NCBI RefSeq assembly: GCF_022458985.1
Contig: NC_061773.1
Coordinates: 17,766,001-17,830,000 of the forward strand
Reading direction: 5' to 3'
DNA length: 64,000 bases
Source of the DNA: Mugil cephalus
Taxonomy: Eukaryota > Chordata > Actinopteri > Mugiliformes > Mugilidae
Part shown: positions 4,654-10,318 of the stretch, piece by piece
Numbering within the stretch: position 1 is the stretch's first letter
Layout of the letters: each line of letters opens with the position of its first letter
Translations under genes and position numbers: made by a program
Notes under the pieces: generated by a model
Database searches by the model: none
What the model saw: only the letters and a program-made list of their open reading frames with translations
Told to the model about the DNA's origin: nothing

Positions 4654-6231
4654 ATGAGTCACGACGATAAGAAGGAAGAATTTGTTTACCAGCGGGTTGT
4701 GTTGAAGAACGCCTCGCCGTACCACTACTTGAAGGTCTGCCTGTAAGTGACCGTTTGTTTTGTGTTTCACTGTCTTTAATCAAGTCGAACACATCTGTCG
4801 CTCGCTCTAATACCAGGACGTTGTTTCTGTGTTTAGTGTACTGGAGGATGAGACAACCAGACTGAGTGCTGTAGAACTGAAGCAGTTCATCATCACGGGC
4901 CTGCACAGTCTGTATGGAGAGGTGAGATCATAGACATGGTCAACTCAAGTCATCCATTTCTTTGTAGCTGACAGTTGGTCACTCTTATGTATTTTCCCAC
5001 CACAAACGTCTCAGATTGAAGCAAACAGCACATAAAAATATAGCTAGTGCATGATCCCTCCTGAGAAAACGCTTGTGGGTCTGGGTTCATCTGATGCTCC
5101 AAGCCACTATCACCTTGTCAATGTGTGTGTGTGCACTATGTAAATAAAAGACCATTAACTATTTATCTGCAAGATGAATTTGGTCGGCATTCACTGTGGT
5201 TCTTGATACCTATCCATACGTGCGTCATCAATATTAAGGTTTAATAGCAGGTGAAGCTACTGTATTAAACAAGGCAGCTCCTCTACTAAACAAGACAGAT
5301 CAGTTGGAAGTTGCGTTGTAGCTTTAACCATTGTCATTTATCGAGCACAATTTACCCACCTTTTATTTGACTCTGCTAACCCTTAATAACCTGGAGGTGA
5401 AGCCATATACTTCACCCGAGTGACCCGGTCCTTCTTATGCTCTTCTGCATGTGGCTGAATGAGATAAAGTTTGGCTGAATTAATTAAACAAACTAACAGC
5501 AGGGGAATTAATAATGGAAATAATTATCTGCACACGATGTCTTGTTGTGTTTGAGGCTTTTTCTCTTTAGTAGGATGCCGCTGAACCGCTGAAGAGTTTT
5601 TTAATCTTCTTCATGAATTTCCGTACATGTGCTTCAGGTGGGAGCGGCGTTGACTTTTGACGTGTTGAAGTACAATGAAAACTCCCTGACCGCTCATCTT
5701 CGTGTGCACAGCAGGTGAGCTTCAGTCAACATCAGCGGCATCTCACACCATCTGTAACGAAGCTAACTTGCCTGTTTGTGCTTGTTTGTTTTCAGAGGTT
5801 TGGTGAAGCTGTGGAGCTCCCTGACTCTTCAGGGCTCCTACCAGGACCAGGCCTGTGCCTTCAGAGTGCTGCAGGTCAGTCAGGAAAGACCTCCTTCCTA
5901 TCAGCCGCCCCTCCCACACACATACTGCCAAGAAGATTATCTGTGCTGTCAGCCACACATATAAAGAAATAGGGGTGAAATAGAGAAAAACACGCACCCA
6001 TCGTCTGTCGCTGATTAGTTCTTGGTGTTGACTTAATTTCTTTTCACTTTCGTTTTGACATTCGACGGTCGTTTTGATTGAGTTTACACCAGTCAGCAGT
6101 CGTATGGATCCAGACGTATTCGTGCTTTACAAACAACTTGAATGTTAACGCTCGTCCTCTCTTGCTGCCTTCAGGTGTCTCCGTTCCTTCTAGCGCTCAC
6201 GGGAAACAGTCGGGATCTGCAGCTCAACTGA
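4654..6231 (+). CDS. rpp14: rpp14, ribonuclease P protein subunit p14
   Basis: Small protein subunit of nuclear RNase P/MRP, the tRNA 5'-leader processing enzyme. Coding exons are 4654-4742, 4837-4921, 5638-5714, 5796-5874 and 6175-6231. All borders are GT/AG and all phases agree; the product is 128 aa (human about 124). Diagnostic stretches are [11 protein letters not shown] near the N-terminus, [20 protein letters not shown] sequence at the exon 4 start ([19 protein letters not shown]) and [18 protein letters not shown] at the C-terminus. ATG 4654 is chosen because human homology starts soon after it and it has A at -3. The stop TGA (6229-6231) lies 5 bases before the htd2 ATG on the same exon. 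Exons 3-5 recur at 8048-8641. Confidence 0.95.
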
Positions 6232-6236
6232 TCAGG

Positions 6237-6701
6237 ATGAGCTTCTTATGGAAAAGACTCTCTTCCATCCCAGCGGCTCTTCCCCTCAGCCGGCTGCTCC
6301 ACGTGGGCCAGCGAGCCTCTCTATCCAGAGCTTTCTTCGCCCGCGACCTGGAGCTGTTCGCCGAGCTGACCGGCGACACCAACCCCCTCCACCTGGACCC
6401 GGTCTACGCCAGCACCACTTCCTTCGAGAGGCCCATCGTGCACGGCGTCCTCATCAACGGCCTGATGTCGGCCGTGCTCGGCACCAAGATGCCCGGCCGC
6501 GGCTGCGTCTTCTTGTACCAGGAGATCCACTTCCCGGCGCCGCTCTACGTCGGGGAGGAGGTGCTGGCCGAGGCCGAGGTCCGCAAGATGAAGATGTCGT
6601 TTGCCTTCATCGCCGTGACGTGCTCGGTCAAGGACAAAGTGGTGATGAAAGGGGAGGTGATGGTGATGATGCCCGATGAGCAGCAGCAGCAGAAGGAGTG
6701 A
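6237..6701 (+). CDS. htd2: htd2, 3-hydroxyacyl-thioester dehydratase type 2 (copy 1)
   Basis: Mitochondrial 3-hydroxyacyl-ACP dehydratase of type II fatty-acid synthesis, the pathway that supplies octanoate for lipoate. It is a single-exon frame of 154 aa in the last exon of the rpp14 mRNA. A basic, Ser/Arg/Leu-rich N-terminus fits a mitochondrial presequence. The hotdog-fold hydratase-2 motif is present as [18 protein letters not shown], with the catalytic Asp and His (GDxNPxH). It continues with [20 protein letters not shown] and [15 protein letters not shown]. The start is ATG 6237, five bases after the rpp14 stop, with A at -3. The rpp14-htd2 bicistronic arrangement is known in vertebrates. 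A likely poly(A) signal ATTAAA is at 6946-6951. Human HTD2 is slightly longer (about 168 aa). Confidence 0.95.
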
Positions 6702-6951
6702 GAACGGGAGGTGGTGGGGACGAAGGCCACGGTCAGATGATGTAGCTCTGCATCTCCCGAAACAGCTTTTCCACACAATGGAGTTTGACTATGAAAAAAG
6801 AAAAAGTCCTTATCGACGCAACAGAGACTTCAGTTAGCTGATAATTTATTGTTTAGTATTTTTAATTTGTCAGCTCTGCCCCGTTGTTTGAACATCGTGT
6901 GAAATGTTTTGTGAAGAACGAAACATGCAGTTATGTTTGGAATTTATTAAA
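6702..6951 (+). other. htd2: rpp14/htd2 3' UTR, copy 1
   Basis: Non-coding sequence after the htd2 stop, ending at an ATTAAA at 6946-6951 followed by GT-rich sequence. Duplicated at 9112-9361. Confidence 0.5.
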
Positions 6952-7321
6952 TCTGTTCGTGTTTTATTGTCATGAGTCTTCACTCATTTCTGTTACCTTT
7001 TTACTTTAATTGTTCAACTTTTGTGATTTTGACCCTACTGCAATGTAATTAAGTGAGAGTAACACTTAATTGTTGTGGCACCTGAGTAACGTTGGTTTCC
7101 ACCTGCTGAGGACTGATATAGAGAGGTGTGTTTTATTTATTATTTCATTTTGGTTTATTTTGTAGGTGGGCTTGATGCTGTTGTTTTTAATAATCTTGTT
7201 AAATAATTTTATTGTAATAGAATGACCTTAAAATTTTTTTGCAAATAAATTAGAAAATGTTCTGCACCATTATGGCAATGATCTGTGGTTGAAGCATCTA
7301 TAGATAATTTTTTACGGTTAT

Positions 7322-7322
7322 T

Positions 7323-7383
<61 letters not shown>

Positions 7384-7384
7384 T
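7322..7384 (+). repeat. (GATA)n microsatellite
   Basis: About 15 uninterrupted GATA/TAGA units. The corresponding site in the second unit (about 9768-9796) is much shorter, so tract length differs between the two copies. Confidence 0.95.
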
Positions 7385-8641: not shown

Positions 8642-8646
8642 TCAGG

Positions 8647-9111
8647 ATGAGCTTCTTATGGAAAAGACTCTCTTCCATCCCAGCGACTCTTCCCCTAAGC
8701 CGGCTGCTCCACGTGGGCCAGCGAGCCTCTCTATCCAGAGCTTTCTTCGCCCGCGACTTGGAGCTGTTCGCCAAGCTGACCGGCGACACCAACCCCCTCC
8801 ACCTGGACCCGGTCTACGCCAGCACCACTTCCTTCGAGAGGCCCATCGTGCACGGCGTCCTCATCAACGGCCTGATGTCGGCCGTGCTCGGCACCAAGAT
8901 GCCCGGCCGCGGCTGCGTCTTCTTGTACCAGGAGATCCACTTCCCGGCGCCGCTCTACGTCGGGGAGGAGGTGCTGGCCGAGGCCGAGGTCCGCAAGATG
9001 AAGATGTCGTTCGCCTTCATCGCCGTGACGTGCTCGGTCAAGGACAAGGTGGTGATGAAAGGGGAGGTGATGGTGATGATGCCCGATGAGCAGCAGCAGC
9101 AGAAGGAGTGA
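8647..9111 (+). CDS. htd2 second copy (intact frame)
   Basis: A 154-codon frame duplicated from htd2, with start and stop in the same places. I see two amino-acid differences: Ala to Thr in the presequence region (PATLPL) and Glu to Lys just before the active-site motif ([12 protein letters not shown]). The catalytic GDTNPLH motif is intact. Glu at that place matches the human sequence as I recall it, so Lys is probably the derived state. No first exon or NRF1-type promoter is duplicated. Expression would need read-through from rpp14, alternative splicing, or the displaced pxk-type promoter fragment at 7823-7869. It could be a young functional paralog, an alternative 3' end, or an assembly duplicate. 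Confidence 0.75.
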
Positions 9112-9361
9112 GAACGGGAGGTGGTGGGGACGAAGGCCACGGTCAGATGATGTAGCTCTGCATCTCCCGAAACAGCTTTTCCACACAATGGAGTTTGACT
9201 ATGAAAAAAGAAAAGGTCCTTATCGACGCAACAGAGACTTCAGTTAGCTGATAATTTATTGTTTAGTATTTTTAATTTGTCAGCTCTGCCCCGTTGTTTG
9301 AACATCGTGTGAAATGTTTTGTGAAGAACGAAACATGCAGTTATGTTTGGAATTTATTAAA
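9112..9361 (+). other. rpp14/htd2 3' UTR, copy 2
   Basis: Near-identical to 6702-6951, with the same ATTAAA hexamer at its end. Confidence 0.45.
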
Positions 9362-9799
9362 TCTGTTCGTGTTTTATTGTCATGAGTCTTCACTCATTTC
9401 TGTTACCTTTTTACTTTAATTGTTCAACTTTTGTGATTTTGACCCTACTGCAATGTAATTAAGTGAGAGTAACACTTGAATTGTTGTGGCACCTGAGTAA
9501 CGTTGGTTTCCACCTGCAGAGGACTGATATAGAGAGGTGTGTTTTATTTATTATTTCATTTTGGTTTATTTTGTAGGTGGGCTTGATGCTGTTGTTTTTA
9601 ATAATCCAAATAAATAATTAAATAATAATAAATAATAATAAAGTTAAATAATTTTATTGTAATAGAATGACCTTAAAATTTTTTTGCAAATAAATTAGAA
9701 AATGTTCTGCACCATTATGGCAATGATCTGTGGTTGAAGCATCTATAGATAATTTTTTATGGTTATTTAGATAGATAGGTAGATAGATAGATAGATTAC

Positions 9800-10118
9800 T
9801 TTACTTACTTTATTTATTTAGATACTTTACTGATCCCACAAGGAAAGTCATTGTGATTTTCAAATAGAACTGAATCCAAAAAGTCAAAACAGGTCTTAAA
9901 TGTCTCATCTCAACTATAAACACTGGTCCCCTAGTGGGTACACGCTGGACAAGTCTCCAGTCTATCACAGGGCTAACACAGAGGATCAGACAATTCGCCA
10001 TTCACACGCACTCCTATGGCCAATTTAGAATCACCAAACTCCACACAGAGAGGCCCTGGTCGAACCAAGAGGTGAGGCCTCAGTGATAACTACCACAACA
10101 CCGTGCTACCCAGGTCTT
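9800..10118 (-). mobile_element. tRNA-like SINE-type repeat, copy 2
   Basis: Duplicate of the 7385-7695 repeat, copied with the 2.4-kb unit and not inserted independently. It has the same neighbours and nearly the same sequence. Confidence 0.55.
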
Positions 10119-10244
10119 AAATGTCTGCAATATAAAACATAAGATAAAATACATATATGTTTTATTTTATATATTTTTGTGTTTTTTTTGTTTGTTTTGT
10201 TTTTTAAAATCTCACTGATAGTCATATTCAGTTACTCCTCCAGA

Positions 10245-10318
10245 CCAGCAGGCGGCGGTGACGCTTGTTCACGTGGTTTCCCAACATCCAATCAAATCCA
10301 ATCAGCCTGGTGACGTCA
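10245..10318 (+). promoter_or_regulatory. pxk: pxk promoter: CTCF-like, E-box, two CCAAT, CRE
   Basis: In order: CTCF-like motif (10245-10259), CACGTG (10270-10275), CCAAT (10288-10292), CCAAT (10298-10302) and a full palindromic CRE TGACGTCA (10311-10318). The pxk ATG follows about 200 bases on. The first part is also present at 7823-7869 because the duplication breakpoint falls within this promoter. Confidence 0.6.

Follow-up and report, generated by a model that had tools for sequence, protein, structure and literature searches.

A 64 kb window of the Mugil cephalus genome (RefSeq assembly GCF_022458985.1, contig NC_061773.1, positions 17,766,001 to 17,830,000 of the forward strand; GC 40%, no N) probably holds a genuine, recent tandem duplication, whether fixed or polymorphic, of part of the bicistronic RPP14-HTD2 gene, namely its 3′ half. 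RPP14 is a subunit of RNase P, and HTD2 is a mitochondrial enzyme of fatty acid synthesis. According to two earlier accounts (PMC4705651, PMC5932603), RPP14 and HTD2 lie on one mRNA and their pairing has been conserved over 400 million years. The duplicated DNA forms two head-to-tail units, delimited by self-BLAST and global alignment, with the following extents and distinguishing features (positions are those of the window).

5459..7868, + strand: tandem unit 1, 2410 bp
7869..10292, + strand: tandem unit 2, 2424 bp
7868..7870, + strand: unit junction, with a 3-bp microhomology (AAT) found again at 5458-5460 and 10290-10292
7323..7383, + strand: GATA microsatellite of unit 1, 15.2 copies; interrupted and 23 bp shorter in unit 2
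9607..9642, + strand: AT-rich insert of unit 2, 34 bp split between two adjacent gaps, with three AATAAA and one ATTAAA absent from unit 1

The global alignment contains 26 substitutions in 2387 aligned columns (98.9% identity; Jukes-Cantor distance 0.011), 17 of the 26 being transitions, and chance similarity of the two units is not an issue. Five of the substitutions sit at the irregular end of the GATA tract. Internally, the units also differ in length, by 1 bp, by 34 bp where unit 2 carries the AT-rich insert (two adjacent gaps) and by 23 bp where its GATA tract is shorter; a 2-column terminal gap represents the unit end only. Self-BLAST detects the pair as two pieces, one of 1752 columns (98.9%) and one of 683 columns (95.0%). 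With the low-complexity filter on, a word size of 16, E ≤1e-10 and a length of at least 80, the pair is the sole repeat listed within the window. These results confirm what the initial annotation had observed, namely two head-to-tail units at 5459..10292 with very few substitutions, separated by point changes, a GATA length difference and an AT insertion; its coordinates are right within the ambiguity of the unit edges, which the repeated AAT leaves undefined over 3 bp. Its interpretation is partly supported. The further suggestion that the units are not a simple copy-paste does not follow, since about 1% point change and a change in microsatellite length are expected of an ageing copy.

For tests of how the differences are distributed, we dropped the five substitutions at the GATA end and kept 21 of the 26. 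These 21 are evenly scattered along the unit (P 0.67 for dispersion). No identical stretch exceeds 302 bp, a length that is not exceptional (P 0.85), so that a gene-conversion mosaic was rejected for want of any converted-tract signal. Seven of the 21 differences create or destroy a CpG, with the CpG in unit 2 for four and in unit 1 for three; neither unit therefore looks decayed, and CpG decay was likewise set aside. The 3′ part of each unit (~7377-7700 and ~9799-10122) presumably derives from common fish interspersed repeats, fragments of which it resembles, and since these fragments are present in both units they would be older than the duplication. Two further GATA-type microsatellites occur in the window, at 15522-15612 (22.8 copies) and 38280-38364 (21.2 copies), in the orientation opposite to that of unit 1.

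Each unit comprises the last three RPP14 coding exons, the whole HTD2 frame and the 3′ flanking sequence as far as a PXK-like gene, which we take to begin with the ATG at 10522 of a downstream frame that reads like PXK. The 5′ exons of RPP14 were searched for by tblastn with a human RPP14 query, and the coding parts of the locus were modelled as follows.

4654..4742, + strand: RPP14 coding exon 1, in the single-copy, unduplicated 5′ half (tblastn; open-frame exon model)
4837..4921, + strand: RPP14 coding exon 2, single copy (tblastn; exon model; piece matching 6ahr_H)
5638..5714, + strand: RPP14 coding exon 3, unit 1 (exon model)
5796..5874, + strand: RPP14 coding exon 4, unit 1 (exon model)
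6175..6231, + strand: last RPP14 coding stretch, unit 1, with the stop TGA at 6229-6231
6237..6701, + strand: HTD2 open reading frame, unit 1, 154 residues, MaoC-like hydratase
8048..8124, + strand: RPP14 coding exon 3, unit 2, with one codon different (Asn to Asp)
8206..8284, + strand: RPP14 coding exon 4, unit 2, with one silent difference
8585..8641, + strand: last RPP14 coding stretch, unit 2 (exon model)
8647..9111, + strand: HTD2 open reading frame, unit 2, 154 residues, with A14T, E43K and four silent changes relative to unit 1

Spliced to either unit, the shared 5′ exons yield an open RPP14 frame of 128 residues, the two products being one residue apart. The splice dinucleotides of the three duplicated RPP14 exons are intact in both units and both HTD2 frames are open, as the initial annotation had held for splice sites and reading frames. 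Its gene identities were right as well: the unit-1 and unit-2 RPP14 models score 37.2 and 35.9 bits against PF01900 (Rpp14/Pop5; cut-off 23), both also exceed the cut-off of PF20976 (Pop8), and a 99-residue piece of the unit-1 model matches human RPP14 (6ahr_H) with an E of 8.4e-31. A second set of RPP14 5′ coding exons was not found by tblastn or the exon model, the set at 4654-4921 being the only one detected. Unit 2 starts within a former RPP14 intron and has neither 5′ exons nor a start codon for RPP14 of its own. With the RPP14 5′ exons found once, the second copy falls short of a full gene: in the predicted structure it is an alternative 3′ end rather than a second complete RPP14-HTD2 gene. 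The locus thus combines a single 5′ half of the bicistronic gene with two 3′ halves that are interchangeable. The description of unit 2 as carrying a second intact htd2 thus stands with regard to the open 154-residue frame and is overstated with regard to the gene; lacking its own 5′ exons, unit 2 must share the promoter and exons of the first copy or use another promoter. That its rpp14 is partial holds; the part present is the final three coding exons, which continue the reading frame of the unduplicated 5′ exons.

The HTD2 start codon follows the RPP14 stop after a gap of 5 bases. Both HTD2 copies carry the MaoC-like domain (PF01575; 66.7 and 67.0 bits, cut-off 27), and copy 1, on which the structure search was run, matches human HTD2 (3ir3) with an E of 3.9e-46. 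Both copies retain D47 and H52, the hydratase-motif residues that we take to be catalytic; of 33 bacterial relatives, 32 have D at position 47 and all 33 have H at position 52. E43K lies four residues N-terminal to the conserved Asp, at a position occupied in the same relatives by G (14), S (6), D (4), A (3), E (2), R (2), K (1) and M (1). Since the position varies to this extent, the idea that E43K damages the unit-2 HTD2 was rejected, and a lysine there is probably tolerated. Human HTD2 (3ir3) carries E at the equivalent position, which hints that K43 of unit 2 is the derived state.

The junction of the two units contains no N, is precise to the base, and lies in sequence that is otherwise unrepeated within the window. 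No similarity longer than a 9-bp best match (E 0.69) was found between the two 400-bp edge regions, and unequal crossing-over between repeats was rejected because no repeat was found in common between these regions. End joining and template switching are expected to leave edges with little or no microhomology and without long repeats. The edges here show the 3-bp AAT with nothing beyond that 9-bp match; microhomology-associated end joining or template switching is the natural reading of such a junction. In this model, a break or a replication template switch would have connected the RPP14 intron after exon 2 with a site immediately 5′ of the PXK-like gene, using the AAT microhomology. The outcome is one 5′ half, presumably with the one promoter, followed by two tandem 3′ halves; on the reading of a simple tandem duplication, the old gene is left whole through unit 1 and the region upstream of PXK is left whole after unit 2. 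Consistent with such a duplication, the reading frame of the RPP14 exons appears to continue into unit 1, and the sequence beyond unit 2 to lead into the PXK-like gene.

The alternative to a real duplication is that the two units are the two alleles of a single locus, placed one after the other during assembly or gap filling, that is, a haplotype-derived (heterotype) false duplication, and the initial annotation was right to oppose these two explanations. We regard such an artefact as possible, if rather unlikely. The 98.9% identity and the small simple-repeat indels are what alleles would show, and the four silent and two replacement differences in HTD2 are also as expected between alleles of a constrained gene. 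According to PMC9516828, 4 to 16% of the sequence in previous assemblies of three species consisted of false duplications, and these are mostly separated by an assembly gap, sometimes by unsupported sequence. There is no N in the window, which differs from the usual gapped arrangement, although gapless false joins are reported too. The lengths of the identical ends also bear on the matter: 79 bases are identical at the start of the units and 7 at the end, and since a collapsed heterozygous bubble should leave similar stretches on both sides, this inequality fits such a bubble poorly. Neither these ends nor the missing Ns and the precise microhomology junction are decisive against an artefact, and the same applies to the fact that just one such tandem pair is listed in 64 kb. 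Together, however, the absence of Ns, the 3-bp microhomology and the lack of a longer edge repeat favour a real duplication over a haplotype artefact, without proving it.

Several points weigh against a real duplication. In 200,000 trials of random joins within the window, 6.0% had microhomology of at least 3 bp (P 0.060), so the AAT has a 6% chance of arising by chance. A divergence of 1.1% also lies inside the allelic range of outbred fishes, and the share of transitions and the simple-sequence indels are equally expected of alleles. False duplications can, moreover, be joined gaplessly by wrong gap filling, as PMC9516828 describes for some cases. The same paper counts among true duplications a case in which one allele alone carries the tandem duplication, on a single contig and at haploid depth; half-depth coverage, which the initial annotation named as refuting a duplication, would consequently not decide the question.

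If the duplication is real, as we think probable, the copy may be fixed or polymorphic. Candidate poly(A) hexamers are present in unit 1 (ATTAAA at 6946, AATAAA at 7244) and at the same two places in unit 2 (9356, 9689), which has four more in its AT insert. The default mRNA end would most likely be that of unit 1, and use of unit 2 would presumably need splicing past unit 1 and its poly(A) site, read-through, or a local promoter. Splicing past unit 1 would again yield RPP14 and HTD2, the former altered at one residue and the latter at two. Two motifs of the duplicated sequence, CACGTG (7848) and CCAAT (7866), now also lie just 5′ of unit 2, but TGACGTCA at 10311 is past the unit edge and was therefore not copied; that the motifs at 7848 and 7866 might serve unit 2 as a borrowed promoter is speculation.

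A functional two-ended gene, as a special case of the real duplication, seems improbable. In this scenario, one promoter and 5′ half would be alternatively spliced to two terminal 3′ cassettes, giving two mRNAs, each encoding an RPP14 and an HTD2 variant, with the second selected for dosage or for its changed proteins. It would agree with the full 128-residue RPP14 obtained from the shared 5′ exons and unit 2, with the intact unit-2 HTD2 frame with D47 and H52 present, and with the HTD2 differences, of which 2 of 6 are replacements (sites at kappa 3: silent 126.9, replacement 335.1; one-sided test against neutrality, P 0.052). However, the same silent excess could come from selection confined to one copy, or acting on alleles that predate the duplication, and the duplicated RPP14 exons, with one silent and one replacement difference, show no such excess. 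Nor is coding sequence less diverged than non-coding sequence (8/672 vs 13/1710, five GATA-end columns excluded; Fisher P 0.33). Intactness is weak evidence of use because, when 26 substitutions were placed in unit 2 of simulated neutral copies, frames and splice dinucleotides stayed intact in 66% of 3000 trials, a figure that is too high in that indels were left out and too low in that all changes were assigned to unit 2. The unit-2 copy is likely near neutral.

Later accounts of the bicistronic RPP14/HTD2 gene of vertebrates reportedly rest on Autio et al. 2008 or on a comparable source. The human bicistronic gene is described in PMC4705651. As in the vertebrate gene described in PMC5932603 and PMC4705651, an RPP14 frame here precedes an HTD2 frame, whereas in the mullet window the last three RPP14 coding exons and HTD2 are doubled behind one 5′ half. 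Partial-gene tandem duplications, such as those surveyed in Drosophila (PMC4503668), are alike in having a tandem copy with an intragenic edge; here, in contrast, it is the 3′ half of a bicistronic gene that is copied, the second cistron whole and the first in part. The false heterotype duplications of PMC9516828 share adjacent near-identical copies with allele-like divergence; the present pair differs, as far as a comparison from assembled sequence can tell, in its gapless microhomology junction. In the open-licence literature, we found no report of an RPP14 tandem duplication in fish, nothing on HTD2 in mitochondrial fatty acid synthesis in zebrafish, and nothing joining at least three of tandem duplication, partial gene duplication, alternative last exons and bicistronic genes; the sole item to mention HTD2, RPP14 and duplication together was a paper on rheumatoid arthritis. 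PMC12819141 was discarded as a relevant bicistronic case, as it uses the term once, for a cloning cassette, and HTD2 is absent from it. If real, the duplication would be a natural test of the conserved RPP14-HTD2 pairing, with HTD2 copied whole and RPP14 in part, and the copy could raise HTD2 dosage without a second complete RPP14. If it is an artefact, annotation of the assembly could carry a false extra HTD2 gene. The interest is modest either way, partial tandem duplications being a familiar kind of variant.

The flanks of the locus and the rest of the window contain further features. On the 5′ side of RPP14 lies an alpha/beta-hydrolase-like gene, which we take to be probably ABHD6; a piece joined by eye scores 21.9 bits against PF12146, under the cut-off of 27. 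For the PXK-like frame, its 34-residue start has no Pfam match. An Rfam scan of the window gave 0 matches at the gathering score. On the − strand, a frame at 36167-37167 carries a ZP-N domain (PF23344; 31.8 bits, cut-off 24.7) and lies beside a cysteine-rich frame without a Pfam match, and the two perhaps form one zona-pellucida-like gene. Also on the − strand, 59506-60135 is an open frame of 209 residues that starts acidic and ends in a basic part containing Cys; the 194 residues from its first Met match no Pfam family. Finally, a CT-rich low-complexity tract of ~440 bp at 24516-24954 consists of 88 copies of a 5-base unit with 79% matches.

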